Positions 5,260 through 35,758 of a stretch of DNA of 35,758 nucleotides are shown piece by piece. The DNA comes from Bacteroidota bacterium. Its GTDB lineage: Bacteria > Bacteroidota > Bacteroidia > UKL13-3. Position 1 is the first letter of the stretch; the number at the start of each line of letters is the position of its first letter. The stretch covers positions 1 to 35,758 of the forward strand of contig JAWXAU010000081.1 of assembly GCA_034439655.1 (NCBI GenBank), written 5' to 3'. The translations under genes and the position numbers were made by a program. The notes under the pieces were generated by a model, which did no database searches, had not been told where the DNA came from, and saw only the letters and a program-made list of their open reading frames with translations.

Positions 5260-5631
5260 GGGGCTGACCGGAATTGACGGGATGTGTAGCACGGGGGTAA
5301 GCATGCAGTGCCTTGTAAGGGAGCACTTTAATCTGAACTTTCAAGCCTTAACCGGCAACACTTCATTTGCTTTGGCTGCCTAATCGGTTAGATTACGCAC
5401 TCAATCGTTTGCAGAAACTTTGCCCCAACAGCAACTGAGCACAGACGATCAAACCCCAGTTGGGGACTTTTAGTTACCGTGGTTGCGGGTTTCTAAATGT
5501 ATTAGTAACCTAAGGAATAGATTGGTGAGCGGGACTCCTGCCTATTCTCTAAAATTAAATTTCTCGACAAGCATGTAGAAAGCTCTATCGAGTTCCATCT
5601 CCGGACCAGGGTTCGACTCCCTGCAGCTCCA
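5260..5631 (+). ncRNA. ssrA: tmRNA (SsrA)
   Basis: One-piece tmRNA of about 372 nt. The 5' end GGGGCTG (5260-5266) pairs with CAGCTCC (5624-5630) to form the alanine-type acceptor stem, followed by discriminator A5631. The conserved start GGGGCTGACCGGAATTGACG and the T-arm loop GGTTCGACTCC near the 3' end are diagnostic. The tag reading frame starts at GGC 5354 and ends at TAA 5381-5383, encoding GNTSFALAA after the charged alanine; the LAA end is the protease-recognition signal. The DNA after the discriminator reads CTA, not CCA, so CCA must be added enzymatically. tmRNA rescues stalled ribosomes together with SmpB, which is not in this window. A strong terminator follows at once. Confidence 0.97.
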
Positions 5632-5638
5632 CTAAAAT

Positions 5639-11232: not shown

Positions 11233-14200
11233 TTACTGTAATGTATACCTAGCGGTTACGCCAAATTGCACATTGGTGGTTGGGTAAGAGCTGGTAGTAT
11301 AAGGTTTTGAAATGCGTTGATCATAATACAAGCGTATCAATACTTTATCGCTGGCTTGGTAGTCGATGGTGGGTTTAATACTGATTATTTTCATACCAGC
11401 AGTAGGAACGCTTACCCCATCAAATTTGCGAATGGTGGTCCAGTTATCACGAATAGAAAAATCGAAACGGAAACTGGCATCATTGGGCAAATACAAGGAA
11501 TTACCGCGGAATTTGATCCACCTAATGGTCAATCCCTTTTTGCGGAAACCTGCACCTATTACTATTTCTCGGTTCTTCATTTCTTGCAATTGCGGGTTAA
11601 CGGGCACCAATGACAGCATGCGTTCTTTCTTCAATTCAAATTTAAAAGTAAAGCTATTGGTAAAAGTCATATCAACCCCAATAAGCGGTGAGAAGCGTTC
11701 GGCAATCGTTACATTTTGAAGTGCAAGTCTAGGTTCCAAGGTATAGGTGGCACCCACACCTCTGCTAGATAATGCCGAATCGACAGAATATCCCAGCGAT
11801 GAACCAAACCCTCCTACCGAATAAGTAGAAGCATAGGCATGTGATAGACTTAGATTGGGGATTATTTTTTTGATAGCGGGAATTTTACTTAGCCCATTCC
11901 ATGTAACACGCCATGATGCACTTGGTATTTTAGGGAACAATTCGGCCTTATAATTAATTGGGTTTTTGCCACTGTATGCCGATAGGAATGAGTGTATTAC
12001 AACATCGTGTTGTAGCGGTGAATAGCCCATCGGATAGCCAGTTAAAACATCAACGCCTTTGCCTTTTGATCGGTCATCGGTGCTTTGCAATTGGCTGGCA
12101 ATGGTAAATCTTTGGTCACGCATTTTTTCAAATACATCCGAGTTTATTGGAGTGCTCTTACTAAATGCAGTACGTATAATATTATAGGTCATACTAAATG
12201 TTCCATTCTCTAAAGGAGCAAAATTGCTATATCCATTCGTACTGGGTTCATAGTTGAAAAAGCTTTGATAGGAAGTGGTCATCGACCGCTGGAAAGTGAG
12301 CTGAATTCTAAAATCGTTGAACGGTTCTACAGTAGCCTGCATATTAAATTGCTTGTTTAGCGTTCGTGTATTTGGGTTGTTCACTCCAGACCCTGCTGCA
12401 AGCCAACCATTTTTGGCGGCATCATACTTTAGCATGCTGTCCTGGCTTCCAGTAATAAAGTCCCAGCCCGGTGCCATCATATCAAAATTTTGGCCAAAGT
12501 ATTTTGGTTTGGGTAAGAAACCTGGCAAGGTGGTTCCCCTATTTTCAGTATAGGTAAAATTGATGGTTTTCACCATCATCACCAATCGGGCAGTGTGCTC
12601 GGCTAATGACAGTAAAGGGTTTTTGCTATTGGGTGTTGGTGTTTCATCAACCTTCGATGTGTCTTCATCGGTCGCTTTTTTCTTGGGAACCTTATTGGGT
12701 ACTTTAGGCTTTACTTTTGGAGGTGGTGGAGGTGGTGTTTGTTTTTTACCGCTGGCAATCCGTTCTAAAAATTTAATTTTATTGTATAGTTGCTGCATAT
12801 TGAATTGCCCCGTTAAAGAATTGTTTTTTGAGTTTGCGATCGTATTTCCTATAGTGTCTTGCAAACCTGGAGGGCCTTGAGTCCATGAATAATTTACACT
12901 TACCCGGGCTGTCATACTTATAAAATTGGTCAAAGGGAACTTATTGAAAGGCAAGGTATAACTAAGGTTGCCCATTTGATTAAATTGGGTAATGCGGCCC
13001 AATCGTTTGATATTTTTTATAATAGAGTCGTGCCCCTCACCAGAATATCGAAAAACGGCCCCTGCTGGTTCATCTATCCTCGCATTCGTAATAGCATTAT
13101 AATCGAACTTGAGGGCTTTGGTCAAATCCCATTTAACATCAAATTGCCGCGAAGTGGTGAAATTCTTATCATATAAGGTATCGATGCGGGTATTGTTTAA
13201 GTTATCGTTTACGCGGTTCACCATTTCGCCGTAACGTCTGTCGGTATTGGTAATAATATTTATTGACTGTGGTTTGTAGTAAAAATTAAAATCACGTATC
13301 AATTGTAAATACTTCGACTTAAAATGCTTTTTGAAAGGTTCGACAGGTTTGGCCTGCGTTTGGAAAGAATAGTTGAGTTTAAAGTTATATAGTTTTATCT
13401 TATTGTATTGTATCAACTGGTTCCGTTGAAAAAACTCGTTGAAGGCATAAGAAAGATTGAAATTTTCAATGCTATAAAATTTCTTCTTTTTGCTACCAGT
13501 TAAATTTTTGTGTACATTCGACACGTTCCATCCCTTTTTAATGGTTAGGTCGTCGGCGTTATATTTAATATTGGCCCGTTCGTCGGCAGGGGTTACATTA
13601 AGCACACTGCTCATAGGAATATCGGGATTTAAAGGATAAAAATGCGGCCTTACCAAGGTTTGGTTATATCCATAATAGAAAGGAATGCTCACGCCCGATT
13701 TTGCAGGGAAAAACTTGCCCAACTCTAGCATGGTATTTAGGTCGAAGTTTGTAGTGAGGTTTCTCGCTCGGTCGTTCAATTTTTTATCAATTCCTCCATA
13801 TCCTACGGTAGTGATATTTCCGGCCATATTCAAGGTGCCGATATCAGCTAACTTTATCACACTTCTGGCTGTTGCAGCCCAACCACCGGGGTTTTCAAAT
13901 CCGCTCACTCTTAATTCGTTCACCCATATTTCACCACATTTTGATAATCCATCGTCGGCGGGGTTGTCAAATTGTTTGGGGTTTCGCACCCCTATTAATA
14001 TTACCCGTATATTGCTCATATCGGGGATACCGTTTACAGCCAACCTTTTACCATCGGGTGTATAATTCTCAAAATAGGTATTCGTGCCTCCTTGTTTTAG
14101 TCGCAATACTTTCAAATCATAAAAGGCGGCAATATCAATATTCAATTCATTGTCAGCTCGCCAAATATCGTTTTCGTTGGTCTGCCCCCAATTGGTTAGC

Positions 14201-17200
14201 TTAAGCGGGATTTCATATTCATAATAGTTATTGGTAAAGTCGGTACCGAGCCTCACAAATACAGATAGGTCTTTGTCTTTTAATATCTCACCAGCCAATG
14301 CCTCGGCATGCACAAACATTTTCAAGGTCTTATAATTCCGGATGTCTAATTTTACATTCTTGAACACAGCCCTTGCATCGCCATCTTTCAGTCCGCATAC
14401 CCTAAGCGACAATGATTGCTCATTTTGTTGAATGGGGTTTGGCTGACTCACATCCAATTGCCTGAAAATACCTGGGGGTAGCACATAAGGAACAGGCTGT
14501 CGTTGGTTGTTTTCTTCCACATTTACGGTCGAAACTACAAATGAGGTATTATCATTGGGGTCGATGGGATTAACTGAACCGGGGGTAGCAAGCGATACCA
14601 AGTACTTACGCCATTCGGCCCTAATCAGTTGCATGTTTGCAAACCGAAGTACGACGGAATCAGTAAATCCTCTCATTATCATACGCATAAAACGAATGGA
14701 CTTAAAATCGGGTATACTCCCAATTCTACGCTCATAAGAACGAACAGGTACCTTCAATTGGTACCAGGTAACAGTATCGTCGGGACAGTTACAAGGTTTT
14801 TCAAGTTTTGGTCCTGAGCGAACGGAGTCTGTGACATAGTTTTGCCCAACTATCAGTTTGCTTTTGCTTAGGTCTATTCGGTATTGATAGTACTCTTCTA
14901 TTTCATTGAGGGTAAAGTCTTTATTAATATCCTCGTCGTTAGGGTTGGGTTGGTTGGCAACGGGGTAAGTTTCTTTAGGCTGGTGTGGGGGCGGAGCATT
15001 AGGGCTTGGCGAGTTTCCGTCAGGGCCATTAAAATATTTATAACGGGCTAGTATACTGGTTTTGGCCGAGTCGAAATCGCTACCTCTATAAAAATGGTAG
15101 TTATCTGATGCAGGGTCATTTAAAGCATCAATATATGCTTTAGAGTTTGTGCCAAAATTATTGGCTAAGGAATCTAAATACTTTTTCTTATAAAAATCTC
15201 TTTCGTTGGCATCGCTCAATCCATCAAGTCCTACGTCCTGCTGCAAACGAGAATTGGGATCGTTGTCGAAGGCATTGTTGATAGCTGGTATTGCAGGCAC
15301 ATTGCCCCACACTGTGGTGTCCATGCGGAGATTGGGTTGCGTGTTGGTTGTTAAACCGTTTTCAAAACTTTTTCGTGAGTCGCTTAACATATCTTCGCTC
15401 ACGTTTCCTAGGTGTAGGTATAATTGTCCGCTGTTATTGGGTTGCGGGTTATGTCCGTTCAAGAATGGATCCATCATCCACAATTCTATATAATCAATAT
15501 TGGCAGCTTCAAAGTCGTTCTGGTCTATTTTACGCATTATCCCTGCCCAATTGCTCTTTGGACTTTTAAAAGTACCGTCACTATTTATATCAGTTGCGTT
15601 AAAGTTGTAGGGGCCGCGTTGGTTGGGGAAGTAGCTTATATCAAAAGTGTTTTGCGTTTGTGGTACCCCCTGTTGTATTTGTTTGTTTTTGAAAACTTCG
15701 TTTACCACCACCTGCCTCACATAATGATTGGATAATTGTCCAGGATCATTTTTTAAATGAGGTGGGGTAAGGTTATTATTGGTATAGAACAAAGGGTCTA
15801 GAATATACCATGACATGCGTGCTGCATGGTCTCTGAAACCAATATTGTATCTATTGTTTCCGTCAGGGAATAAATCTGCTTGTCCTTGAGGGGTGCTGGC
15901 CAGTTGCCAATAATTACCCAACCTCAAATCGGTAGGGATTTCGCTTGCTTCAAAATCGTCAACAAAAGAAACTCCTGACTTGTCAAGGGTTTTCTTGATG
16001 GCGGGTGCTACTCCAGGGATAATTTTTGCAAATTCGCCAGTGAATAAAAAATTACTCATTTCTTTGGTAGAGAGAAAGGGCAAACGATCAATTGCTTTTG
16101 TAAGTCCTCTCCAATTGCTCTTATAAGTTGCATCGAGTCCAACTATAGTATTGTTCAAAGGCTCATCGCCAATACTTACTTTGGGTATAATAGGTCGTTC
16201 ACGCAGATTAAGCAAGGTGCCGCCGATAATAAAATCCTCACTCACTTTAAAATCGAGCCGAGTGCCCATTAGTGTTCGCTGTTGTGTAGTAAAGGTAGCT
16301 GTGTTTTCACAACTGGCTTTTATGGCAGCTCCTTGTGCCAATATTCCAGTATTGATAATGGTTACGCGGCCGGTTGAATAGTCTACCAAATAGTCATTTC
16401 CCTCAATTAAAGGTGTTCCATTTGAGGTTACCTTTACCGAACCTTTAGGTGCATTGAAACAACTCAATTGTATCTCGTTGCTTGCCGAACCTTTAAAACT
16501 ACCTCGAATAAAAAATTTGTTTTTGGTAGCTTTTTGCTGTGCAGCCCATCGGGTCGAATCATATAATTCATCAAAAGCATAATAGTTGGCATTGGCACCA
16601 TTAGGGTCTTTAAACTTGCTTCGTAAAAATTTGCCAAAGGGTTCCAGTACGGGAAATATAATTCTGCCTTGTTGTGGAGATATGGTAATTCCTTCAATCC
16701 AGTCAAACTGTCCATCAGGTTGTGCTTCTAAGTTACTATTAACTCGGTCTATATTTAACACCCGCACCAAGGGAAGACCTTGGAGTTTGGGTTCGTCTTT
16801 GGCTGGCAAATATATCATATCAGCATTCGATGGGTCATCGGCATACCATACGTTCAATTTAAAATCTTGTTTTTGTATCTGATAGCTTCCCACTGAATAT
16901 ATATTTTTCATCATCAGTTTCCAGTTGGGCAAATCGGGGCGGATAGAGATCGGTTTCAAAAGTTTTAAAAACAATACATTTGGGCTTTGTCTATCGGTAG
17001 GAACCTGTCTCGAAAATTCACCTACCTGATAGGGCTGGCCGCCTATTTCGTATTCAAAAGCCACCGCCAAAACCTCATCATTATTTAAGGTTTGATTGAG
17101 TGAAATGTAGCCAAGTTGCGTATGGAAAGTAAATTCATTGGGGTTAAGTTGGCGGGCAAAGTTTATTAACTGATAGTCATCTATTTGCTTCATCTTATTA

Positions 17201-18483
17201 GTTTGCGTGTTCTGTTGAAGCTCGTTCACACTTTTAAAAGTAGATCGGAAATTGACATTGTTAGTAAGTGTTTTGTAGAGGTCGTTTGCAATATTTTCGG
17301 GGAATACCTTGGCAGGGGTCGCAGTAATTTGTTTGTTATATATATGTGCTGCGTCTTCGCCCAGATCCATAAAGCCCATAATGTCGCGGGCATTGTCCAC
17401 AGCACTCGTGCGGTTGGTAACCCATACCTCCACACGGGTAACTCTTACGGGGCTTTGCACCAAAGGAGGTCTATCAAGAAACGCTTCATAATGGTCGCGG
17501 AAATATTGCGAAAGGAAATAATGTTTGTTTTGTTCGTATTGGTCGCACTGTATATCAAAAGGAGTGATTTGTGCACCACCTTGCACCGTAACTTCACTCG
17601 CCCTACTTTTTTGTTGCGAGAACAAAACGGTAGATGTAAGTCGGCCAAATTGAAATTTTACTTTTGCTCCAAACAGGCTTTGGCTACCTGGAATTAAAGT
17701 GCCATTAAGCGGCATGCTCACATTACCCACTTCTATCTTTTTAAGAATACCATCTTCCTTTCCATCCCAATTTAATTTCATTTGGTTTTCAAAATCGAAT
17801 AGGGCTTCAGTATTATAGTTGGTATTAATTTTAAATTTGTCGCCAATGCTACCCGCCACATTTAATTGTATTTTTTGTTTAAAATCGAACTGTGCATTAC
17901 GCTGTTGGCGGCTATTAAGAATAGGGTTTCTAATTAAATTATATATTCCACCAAAAGTGAGCTCGGCTGAGCCCGTAGGTTTGATTTCAACTTTACCATT
18001 GCCAAAAAAGTCTTGAAAGGTTTTACCCGGTATAAATAGTGGAGGGATAGTTCCGCCACTGCTTCTCACAAAATTTTGTGCTTTTGCACGTTGCTTGAAA
18101 TAATTCTTGTTCTGTTCCTCATCTTTTATTTTGGAATAATCTTCGAGCGAAATAGTTTCGGGAGTGCCCACAGGGGTATTACCTATGGATTGCTTCTTGG
18201 TATAAAATTTACCACTGCTATCCAGTTCGTAGGTGGTTTTTATTATATCGGGTTCTTTTAAGTCGAATGCTTTTTTACGGGGTTTGTCCCACGATTGGCG
18301 GGGCCAGTTCTTAAAACGTGTTGAGTCACCAGGCTTAGCGACTTGTTTTTCCGATTTATGAAAGCTTAAAAATTTGACATTTGCCCCAAAAGCTAATGCA
18401 GTGGTGATGCCCAAAAAGAGCATAATGGCTCCGACACTTTTGCCCAAAACCTTGTTCTGTTGAATGCTTTGTTTTTCTCTCAC
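11233..18483 (-). CDS. sprA: T9SS outer-membrane translocon protein SprA (Sov)
   Basis: 2416 residues, the expected giant size. A signal-like hydrophobic segment lies at about residues 13-34 (SVGAIMLFLGITTALAFG). The rest is rich in beta strands and in conserved SprA stretches such as SGGTIPPLFIPGKTFQDFFG (about 140-160), GVSFVDDFEASEIP and GEIWVNELRVSGF. SprA forms the very large outer-membrane barrel through which T9SS cargo leaves the cell; PorV and plug proteins gate it. A Pro/Lys-rich linker (QTPPPPPPKVKPKVPNK, about residue 1910) is probably an exposed, lineage-specific loop. The start appears to be GTG at 18483, overlapping the ruvA stop by 3 nt, so it is coupled to ruvA. At least three proteins with T9SS tails are encoded in this window. 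Confidence 0.96.
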   Translation of the reverse strand: MREKQSIQQNKVLGKSVGAIMLFLGITTALAFGANVKFLSFHKSEKQVAKPGDSTRFKNWPRQSWDKPRKKAFDLKEPDIIKTTYELDSSGKFYTKKQSIGNTPVGTPETISLEDYSKIKDEEQNKNYFKQRAKAQNFVRSSGGTIPPLFIPGKTFQDFFGNGKVEIKPTGSAELTFGGIYNLIRNPILNSRQQRNAQFDFKQKIQLNVAGSIGDKFKINTNYNTEALFDFENQMKLNWDGKEDGILKKIEVGNVSMPLNGTLIPGSQSLFGAKVKFQFGRLTSTVLFSQQKSRASEVTVQGGAQITPFDIQCDQYEQNKHYFLSQYFRDHYEAFLDRPPLVQSPVRVTRVEVWVTNRTSAVDNARDIMGFMDLGEDAAHIYNKQITATPAKVFPENIANDLYKTLTNNVNFRSTFKSVNELQQNTQTNKMKQIDDYQLINFARQLNPNEFTFHTQLGYISLNQTLNNDEVLAVAFEYEIGGQPYQVGEFSRQVPTDRQSPNVLFLKLLKPISIRPDLPNWKLMMKNIYSVGSYQIQKQDFKLNVWYADDPSNADMIYLPAKDEPKLQGLPLVRVLNIDRVNSNLEAQPDGQFDWIEGITISPQQGRIIFPVLEPFGKFLRSKFKDPNGANANYYAFDELYDSTRWAAQQKATKNKFFIRGSFKGSASNEIQLSCFNAPKGSVKVTSNGTPLIEGNDYLVDYSTGRVTIINTGILAQGAAIKASCENTATFTTQQRTLMGTRLDFKVSEDFIIGGTLLNLRERPIIPKVSIGDEPLNNTIVGLDATYKSNWRGLTKAIDRLPFLSTKEMSNFLFTGEFAKIIPGVAPAIKKTLDKSGVSFVDDFEASEIPTDLRLGNYWQLASTPQGQADLFPDGNNRYNIGFRDHAARMSWYILDPLFYTNNNLTPPHLKNDPGQLSNHYVRQVVVNEVFKNKQIQQGVPQTQNTFDISYFPNQRGPYNFNATDINSDGTFKSPKSNWAGIMRKIDQNDFEAANIDYIELWMMDPFLNGHNPQPNNSGQLYLHLGNVSEDMLSDSRKSFENGLTTNTQPNLRMDTTVWGNVPAIPAINNAFDNDPNSRLQQDVGLDGLSDANERDFYKKKYLDSLANNFGTNSKAYIDALNDPASDNYHFYRGSDFDSAKTSILARYKYFNGPDGNSPSPNAPPPHQPKETYPVANQPNPNDEDINKDFTLNEIEEYYQYRIDLSKSKLIVGQNYVTDSVRSGPKLEKPCNCPDDTVTWYQLKVPVRSYERRIGSIPDFKSIRFMRMIMRGFTDSVVLRFANMQLIRAEWRKYLVSLATPGSVNPIDPNDNTSFVVSTVNVEENNQRQPVPYVLPPGIFRQLDVSQPNPIQQNEQSLSLRVCGLKDGDARAVFKNVKLDIRNYKTLKMFVHAEALAGEILKDKDLSVFVRLGTDFTNNYYEYEIPLKLTNWGQTNENDIWRADNELNIDIAAFYDLKVLRLKQGGTNTYFENYTPDGKRLAVNGIPDMSNIRVILIGVRNPKQFDNPADDGLSKCGEIWVNELRVSGFENPGGWAATARSVIKLADIGTLNMAGNITTVGYGGIDKKLNDRARNLTTNFDLNTMLELGKFFPAKSGVSIPFYYGYNQTLVRPHFYPLNPDIPMSSVLNVTPADERANIKYNADDLTIKKGWNVSNVHKNLTGSKKKKFYSIENFNLSYAFNEFFQRNQLIQYNKIKLYNFKLNYSFQTQAKPVEPFKKHFKSKYLQLIRDFNFYYKPQSINIITNTDRRYGEMVNRVNDNLNNTRIDTLYDKNFTTSRQFDVKWDLTKALKFDYNAITNARIDEPAGAVFRYSGEGHDSIIKNIKRLGRITQFNQMGNLSYTLPFNKFPLTNFISMTARVSVNYSWTQGPPGLQDTIGNTIANSKNNSLTGQFNMQQLYNKIKFLERIASGKKQTPPPPPPKVKPKVPNKVPKKKATDEDTSKVDETPTPNSKNPLLSLAEHTARLVMMVKTINFTYTENRGTTLPGFLPKPKYFGQNFDMMAPGWDFITGSQDSMLKYDAAKNGWLAAGSGVNNPNTRTLNKQFNMQATVEPFNDFRIQLTFQRSMTTSYQSFFNYEPSTNGYSNFAPLENGTFSMTYNIIRTAFSKSTPINSDVFEKMRDQRFTIASQLQSTDDRSKGKGVDVLTGYPMGYSPLQHDVVIHSFLSAYSGKNPINYKAELFPKIPSASWRVTWNGLSKIPAIKKIIPNLSLSHAYASTYSVGGFGSSLGYSVDSALSSRGVGATYTLEPRLALQNVTIAERFSPLIGVDMTFTNSFTFKFELKKERMLSLVPVNPQLQEMKNREIVIGAGFRKKGLTIRWIKFRGNSLYLPNDASFRFDFSIRDNWTTIRKFDGVSVPTAGMKIISIKPTIDYQASDKVLIRLYYDQRISKPYTTSSYPTTNVQFGVTARYTLQ

Positions 18484-25894: not shown

Positions 25895-25907
25895 ATGTTT
25901 AGAACGT

Positions 25908-25984
25908 CATTCTGAGAATTGCTTCAATTCGAAGAATCTGCATTCGCGTTCAACAGATTCTTCGTTGGAAGCCAACTCAGAATA
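25908..25984. repeat. Imperfect 77-bp inverted repeat
   Basis: CATTCTGAG...CTTCAATTCGAAGAATCTG on the left pairs with CAGATTCTTCGTTGGAAG...CTCAGAATA on the right, with small loops. A related half-copy (AACAGATTCTTCG...CTCAGAATGACG) lies at 27037-27089. It fills the gap before the inositol-monophosphatase gene. Confidence 0.7.
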
Positions 25985-26004: not shown

Positions 26005-26808
26005 ATGCAAAACATAGCATTAAAAAACATACACCAAGATATACAAAAGCTTGTTATTGATACAGGAAACTTTATTAGAAACGAAGGGCTTAATTTTGAC
26101 CTAGGCGTAGTGGAAACAAAAAGCTTCAACCAATTGGTATCGTATGTAGATAAAACTGCCGAAGAAAAATTGGTGAAAGGGCTATTACAAATATTGCCGA
26201 CAGCAGGATTTATTACCGAAGAAAAAACAATTAACCGCAAAGGCGACCGTTATACTTTTGTGATAGACCCACTTGATGGTACTACCAATTTCGTGCATGG
26301 TCTTCCAGTCTTCAGCGTGAGTGTGGGCCTGATGGATGGAAATAAATTAGTGGCGGGATATGTATTTGATGTTTGTCAAAATTGGCTATTTCATGGATAC
26401 GAAGGTGGCACTGCGATGCTGAATGATAGTATTATACAAGTATCGAAAGCGGCAAAAATGGAAGATGCATTAATGGCCACCGGTTTCCCTTATTATGATT
26501 TTGTGCAAATGCCCGAATATATAGAAGTGCTGAAAGTACTGATGAGGGAAACACACGGACTGCGAAGAATGGGTTCGGCGGCGATAGATTTGGTATATAC
26601 AGCTTGTGGCAAATTTGATGGTTTTTTCGAGTATGGTCTACAACCTTGGGATGTGGCAGCAGGGGCATTTTTGGTAAAACTTGCGGGAGGTAAGGTAGCC
26701 GATTTTAAAGGCGGGGACGATTATCTGTTTGGTAAAACTATTATAGCGGGTAATCCCCAAATATTTGAGAGTTTAACGAAGTTGATTGAGGAGAAATTTG
26801 AGAATTAA
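26005..26808 (+). CDS. Inositol-monophosphatase family phosphatase
   Basis: 267 residues, the normal IMPase size. Metal ligands: Glu in GFITEEKT, the signature DPLDGTTNFVHGLPVFSVSVGL, and the C-terminal WDVAAGAFLVKLAGGKV (Asp ligand). GLRRMGSAAIDLVYTACGKFDGFFEYGLQPWD is also typical. It hydrolyses myo-inositol monophosphate or related sugar phosphates (SuhB-like) with magnesium. Start ATG at 26005; an upstream inverted repeat occupies its leader. The stop codon TAA (26806-26808) overlaps the first two bases of the MITE-like repeat downstream. Confidence 0.9.
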   Translation: MQNIALKNIHQDIQKLVIDTGNFIRNEGLNFDLGVVETKSFNQLVSYVDKTAEEKLVKGLLQILPTAGFITEEKTINRKGDRYTFVIDPLDGTTNFVHGLPVFSVSVGLMDGNKLVAGYVFDVCQNWLFHGYEGGTAMLNDSIIQVSKAAKMEDALMATGFPYYDFVQMPEYIEVLKVLMRETHGLRRMGSAAIDLVYTACGKFDGFFEYGLQPWDVAAGAFLVKLAGGKVADFKGGDDYLFGKTIIAGNPQIFESLTKLIEEKFEN

Positions 26809-26971
26809 TACCGAAACTCTATAATAATAGTCCAAAAAAAGGGGGACTAATCCTCCCGCATCCCGATAATTATCGGGATTAAGCGGGGCTTTCGGGATGT
26901 AGTTCGGCATTGCCATTCTACAAAGTAATCCGCCACAGGCGGAGAACTATTATAGTTTAAGAATTGGTATT
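26807..26971 (+). repeat. MITE-like element, copy A (165 bp)
   Basis: Terminal inverted repeats begin AATACCGAAACTCTATAATA and end TATAGTTTAAGAATTGGTATT (aligned with gaps over about 28 nt). Inside are CCCGATAATTATCGGG (26862-26877), GTAGTTCGGCATTGCC...CTAC and CCGCC-ACA-GGCGG hairpins. Copy B (35527-35661, opposite orientation) is about 90 percent identical outside one block of about 30 nt. No clear target-site duplication. Confidence 0.75.
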
Positions 26972-26987
26972 ACAATCAGTTAAAGAC

Positions 26988-27089
26988 GAAACGAAGAATT
27001 TCATGATACCGAGCTATAAGTTAGGTGAATATTCCCAACAGATTCTTCGCCCGAAGCGGGTCCGATAGCAATCGGACTCAGAATGACGT
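26988..27089. repeat. Diverged AACAGATTCTTCG / ACTCAGAATGACG repeat
   Basis: It contains AACAGATTCTTCGCCCGAAG, TCCGATAGCAATCGGA (27061-27076) and CTCAGAATGACG, shared with the 25908-25984 repeat and the CCGATA palindrome family. It lies between the MITE-like copy and the 3' end of the large T9SS cargo; its hairpins may help end that transcript. Confidence 0.6.
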
Positions 27090-27099
27090 ATATGTTATA

Positions 27100-35520: not shown

Positions 35521-35526
35521 AATATT

Positions 35527-35661
35527 ATACCAATTCTTAAACTAAAATAGTTCTCCACCTGTGGCGGATTGGTTTGTAGAATGGTAATGCCGAACTACAT
35601 CCCGAAAGCTTTCGGGATTAGTCCCTTTCTTTTGGACTATTATATATTGAGTGTCGGTATT
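35527..35661 (-). repeat. MITE-like element, copy B (135 bp)
   Basis: On the minus strand it starts AATACCGACACTCAATATA and ends TTTAAGAATTGGTAT, matching copy A at 26807-26971 closely. It has CCCGAAAGCTTTCGGG (35601-35616) where A has a longer block with CCCGATAATTATCGGG. The CCGCC-ACA-GG(C/T)GG hairpin keeps pairing through a G-U change. It overlaps the 3' end of the partial minus-strand gene. Confidence 0.75.
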
Positions 35662-35758
35662 ACCACTATTCCTGCCATTTCTCAATAGTTGAATCTCCTG
35701 CATCAATTGTGCAACTAATATTTTGAGTTCAACAATCTCTCGTTTAAGAGAATCATAC
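35542..35758 (-). CDS. Partial CDS, C-terminal coiled coil, runs off the window
   Basis: An open frame enters at the right edge and stops at TAG (35544-35542), about 71 codons. The first ~32 residues (YDSLKREIVELKILVAQLMQ, then EIQLLRNGRNSG) form a short amphipathic coiled coil like the end of tail-fibre/S74-type or YadA-like surface proteins in Bacteroidota. The remaining ~39 residues (starting NTDTQYIIVQKKGTNPESF) are translated from MITE-like copy B. The original C-terminus was probably replaced or extended by the repeat. Only the tail is visible, so no function is given. Confidence 0.45.
   Translation of the reverse strand, partial: YDSLKREIVELKILVAQLMQEIQLLRNGRNSGNTDTQYIIVQKKGTNPESFRDVVRHYHSTNQSATGGELF

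Follow-up and report, generated by a model that had tools for sequence, protein, structure and literature searches.

A high-copy, lineage-specific family of MITE-like repeats in an uncultured member of the Bacteroidota

The repeat and its surroundings

The stretch of DNA that was analysed, the window of 35,758 bp, is the complete contig G000:C81 of a 3.5 Mb genome assembled in 205 contigs. Its host belongs to the Bacteroidota, as judged from a methyltransferase in the window, whose best relatives come from uncultured Bacteroidota (~50% identity), and from the SprA and Por genes described next. A tmRNA gene (5260-5634, + strand, 104 bits), Por secretion-tail genes and a SprA homologue of 2416 aa (type IX secretion; 11233-18483, − strand) are present. 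At 641-1194, 71-nt repeats with a spacing of 81 bp lie in an OmpA-family protein with thrombospondin type 3 repeats.

The window contains a short repeat in two inverted copies (Table 1), as observed in the initial annotation, with inverted arms of 83 nt that are 94% identical (26888-26970 and 35527-35609). The two copies align end to end outside the central block, which agrees with the shared ends and differing central palindromes described before. The element itself was placed correctly, but based on the target-site duplication its true ends lie slightly inside the boundaries first assigned. Its terminal inverted repeats are indeed imperfect (TACCGAAACTCAATATATAATAGTCC versus TACCAATTCTTAAACTAWAATAGTTC), with a length of ~26 nt instead of ~28 nt. 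Copy 1 is 90-97% identical to 39 other scored copies.

Table 1. Positions of the two repeat copies in the window and of their component parts.
Feature	Position	Strand	Remarks
Copy 1, 161 bp	26809..26969	+	162-bp subfamily; ends TACC...GGTA
Left target triplet of copy 1, TAA	26806..26808	+	Stop codon of inositol monophosphatase gene (26005-26808)
Right target triplet of copy 1, TTA	26970..26972	+	Middle base differs from left TAA
Left terminal inverted repeat, copy 1	26809..26834	+	
Right terminal inverted repeat, copy 1	26944..26969	-	
Central palindrome, copy 1	26860..26879	none	ATCCCGATAATTATCGGGAT
Right module, copy 1, ~59 bp	26911..26969	+	First bases TGCC; a TACC...GGTA inverted-repeat unit in most copies
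Hairpin, copy 1	26929..26943	none	TCCGCC-ACA-GGCGGA
Copy 2, 132 bp	35528..35659	-	133-bp subfamily; opposite orientation
Target triplet, one side of copy 2	35525..35527	-	TTA (+ strand)
Target triplet, other side of copy 2	35660..35662	-	TTA (+ strand); agrees with the first
Central palindrome, copy 2	35599..35618	none	ATCCCGAAAGCTTTCGGGAT

Copy number and distribution

A 23-nt core of the repeat gave 219 matches in the genome at up to three mismatches and the terminal repeat gave 471, against 0 for the controls. One genome therefore holds at least 219 cores and ~470 terminal-repeat matches, and the question raised in the initial annotation, whether the genome contains only the two copies of the window, is answered in the negative. 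At ~150 bp per copy, 219 copies represent ~1% of the genome. Many of the listed copies are located at contig termini, indicating that the element interrupts the assembly and that the count is probably too low; the family illustrates assembly breakage by such repeats.

The BLASTN comparison with relatives that had been proposed was performed with the 165-bp copy, and no match was obtained in 57 relatives (two congeners and 55 further). The plasmids and phages searched by blastn gave no match either. The core pattern was absent from collections of genome contigs and viral contigs, and the terminal-repeat pattern had no match in viral contigs, collections from which near records were possibly omitted.

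Ends, target site and empty sites

The copies start with TACC, end with GGTA and are flanked by a duplicated 3-bp TWA. In 83 end-to-end units, which include some composite or mis-paired units, the left flank terminates with T-W-A and the right flank opens with T-W-A. In the right flank, A is also favoured at position +4 (59 of 83) and T at +5 (60 of 83), a bias that has no counterpart in the left flank. Among 67 clean copies, the middle base of both triplets was equal in 47 (29 TTA/TTA and 18 TAA/TAA; Fisher p=0.002) and unequal in the remaining 20. One TGA/TGA target was encountered besides TWA. Unequal triplets (TAA versus TTA) are frequent though the copies are young, and the copies bearing them, among which is copy 1 of the window, are only slightly more diverged (p=0.08). 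Examination of duplication lengths of 2 and of 4-10 revealed no excess of matches. In a mutual-information scan the middle-base pair ranked third, inside the permutation range, so the triplet statistics alone are moderate.

At locus L056, a copy interrupts a VOC-like gene that is intact in a congener (G001, 78% identity). When the element and 3 bp are subtracted, a gap-free junction with the orthologous empty site in G001 is obtained. At L103, where one copy is nested in another, removal of the inner element and 3 bp leaves joined flanks that match the outer element at unchanged length. Sequence comparison at these two loci provides the decisive evidence for a 3-bp duplication. At the window locus, the flanking genes are found in the same order and without the element in both congeners (G001 and G002); divergence of the intergenic DNA prevents the empty site from being located exactly.

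The copies are thus dispersed, have common ends, are inserted at T(A/T)A with duplication of the triplet and are absent from the congener site. The term MITE-like used in the initial annotation is borne out by the copy number, the common ends, the duplication and the empty site: the repeat is almost certainly a family of MITEs, non-autonomous DNA transposons that are here specific to one lineage and high in copy number. It is short, has terminal inverted repeats and ends common to many copies, carries no transposase gene, and is flanked by a target-site duplication (3-bp TWA), though the triplets are unequal in 20 of 67 copies. With its exact ends, target rule and an empty site, the family documents a burst, confined to one uncultured species of the Bacteroidota, that produced more than 200 MITE copies.

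The number of unequal triplets exceeds the expectation from mutation only, given the low divergence of the copies, and counts against the MITE explanation; possible causes are recombination, joins made in the assembly and an untidy reaction. Rearrangement is not the cause for copy 1, since its flanks are syntenic in the congeners. The A-T preference beyond the triplet, seen on the right only, counts against the same explanation.

Modular anatomy

Element length ranges from ~115 to 166 bp, leaving no room for a transposase gene. Subfamilies of ~162, 133 and 121 bp have the ends in common and differ in the central palindrome, and a few copies carry a different right-end hairpin. In most copies the 59-60 bp at the right are in themselves an entire inverted-repeat unit, TACC...GGTA, and the left module occurs alone at L244, where it is 60 bp long and flanked by TAA at either side. 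The usual element is therefore best described as two terminal-repeat modules placed head to tail. At L038 and L061, an extra right module follows the element.

As a MITE, the element would have its ends cut by a trans-acting DDE transposase, of which no gene was found in the assembly, and the cut ends would be joined to the target with a 3-bp stagger. The central palindrome may have been lost or replaced in the subfamilies via slippage or deletion at palindromes.

Genomic context

Of 68 complete copies, 57 are intergenic and 11 fall within predicted ORFs; some of these ORFs are short and may be spurious. Simple ORF calls were used and not those of a gene finder. The intergenic copies are located between convergent (19), co-directional (33) or divergent (5) genes. 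For ten complete copies a stop codon is no more than 10 nt away; no copy is as near to a start. This placement may reflect the purging of harmful insertions. An exact coincidence of triplet and stop codon, as for copy 1, was considered as a rule of its own, but with five cases against four and one in shifted frames it was not convincing.

Candidate transposases

The initial annotation reported that no transposase was visible. This was extended to the whole genome, where a patterned search for a partner with matching ends found none. Terminal-repeat patterns, excluding MITE interiors, retrieved only truncated, variant or interrupted MITEs from this incomplete, fragmented assembly. The absence of a transposase with matching ends counts against the MITE explanation; the enzyme was lost, is missing from the assembly or escaped recognition.

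Matches to PF01609, PF13586 and PF13359 in the genome were few and had other ends or were nested in MITEs. One PF01609 candidate is an IS4-like gene at L062 (G000:C83, ~430-1860), belonging to a degenerate element that has its own ends (CCTATCGTGTGGACAC) and is inserted in a MITE copy. Another is an IS1182-like gene without MITE ends. The PF13586 and PF13359 candidates are contig-end fragments with different ends. An element in the relative G013 (L236, L252) has ends, TTA/TACCAATTCTGTAAATAAATTAG...CTAATTTATTTACAGTATTGGTA, that resemble the right end of the MITE family; the likeness is confined to the ends, as the interior is unrelated. About two copies were seen, one of which is interrupted by another transposase gene, and the gene beside these ends appears to belong to an unrelated insertion within a MITE-like element.

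The leading guess, a tentative one, is that an IS5/IS1031-type transposase (TNA target, 3-bp stagger) mobilised the family and that the MITEs arose from it by deletion, although 3-bp target repeats are produced by other transposase families too. Members of the IS1031 group target TNA and generate a 3-bp repeat exclusively (PMC12016507), and both the target, here TWA and one TGA/TGA, and the duplication were found in the MITE family. In contrast to the MITEs, these elements encode their transposase, and the cited member has different terminal repeats, GAACCTGTC... (PMC12016507). None of the few domain matches in the genome has MITE ends. It is improbable that a transposase type new to such ends is responsible, one that often leaves unequal triplets (TAA/TTA) and joins 60-bp inverted-repeat modules head to tail.

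Comparison with known MITEs

The closest precedent for the MITE family is MITECca01 of the Cardinium endosymbiont cOegib (PMC9769881), a comparison made by description and not by sequence. Both are short, gene-free elements with inverted repeats, high in copy number (169 for MITECca01), restricted to one lineage within the Bacteroidota and mostly intergenic. MITECca01 differs in its size of ~240 bp and in being derived from a known parent, the IS982 element ISCca4, of which the genome holds intact copies (PMC9769881). The reviewed bacterial MITEs Chunjie, QMITE2, Correia and ERIC likewise occur in tens to hundreds of copies with size variants, truncated copies and palindromic interiors, but in other hosts and at other sizes, the likeness again being one of description and not sequence (PMC10969869).

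Base pairing within the element

In the initial annotation, pairing kept between the diverged copies was taken to suggest selection on structure, as in REP/BIME elements or a mobilised structured RNA. Strong folds are predicted (-57.8 kcal/mol for the 162-bp consensus) and one weak terminator-like hairpin was found, but the folds are strong because the DNA is palindromic, and the hairpins likewise follow from the palindromic make-up of the element. The change rate is slightly lower at paired than at unpaired sites (0.040 versus 0.054), which taken alone is weak evidence.

Comparison of the copies argues against selection on pairing and reveals no covariation. In the 162-bp set (36 copies, 53 pairs), 110 of the 148 changed paired cells break pairing and 38 keep it, a number equal to the shuffle null (36.4 +/- 1.2). 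Double changes numbered two, against 0.8 in the null, which reached up to four. The 133-bp set had 9 kept and 31 broken cells without double changes, and the 121-bp set 11 and 33, with two double changes that both occur in one aberrant copy. The CCGCC/GGCGG hairpin was intact in 41 and changed in 28 of 69 scored copies, with 23 broken cells, 11 one-sided changes that keep pairing and no double change. The reported difference of GGCGG to GGTGG does exist; it is a one-sided C-to-T change present in two of the 69 hairpins. Entire stems are absent in subfamilies, and Rfam gave no match at the MITE, the tmRNA being its only match in the window.

Since most changes break pairs and pairing is kept at shuffle level, the suggested selection on structure was abandoned, together with the likeness to REP/BIME or structured RNA. 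A mobilised structured RNA or a regulatory hairpin under base-pairing selection is very unlikely; a stem common to two copies does not count as evidence of RNA-structure selection when the transposon is palindromic. The repeat adds a new member to an ordinary class of element.

Spread as REP/BIME, with hairpins as the substrate of a REP-associated Y1 (RAYT) transposase, is scarcely credible: numerous dispersed palindromic copies, mainly intergenic, would suit it, but REPs are palindrome units of 20-40 bp with a GTAG-type tag and no target duplication on moving, which does not fit a 115-166 bp element with long terminal inverted repeats, gene-interrupting copies and a 3-bp duplication, and the empty site with duplication largely refutes it.

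Other repeats near MITE copies

A second dispersed repeat, with inverted arms AGATTCTTCG...CTCAGAATGACG, is located in the window at 25905-25916 and ~27040-27090, and was also found at L062, L013, L027, L030, L055, L119, L120 and L136. At L142, L250 and L262, a further insertion sequence, with end AGACCTCTTTCATAATT, was found at the ends of contigs and beside a MITE end. In the congener G002, a different inverted repeat, GTCATTGCGAGGAGC...CTTCTCGCAATGAC, lies between the same two genes as copy 1 of the window.
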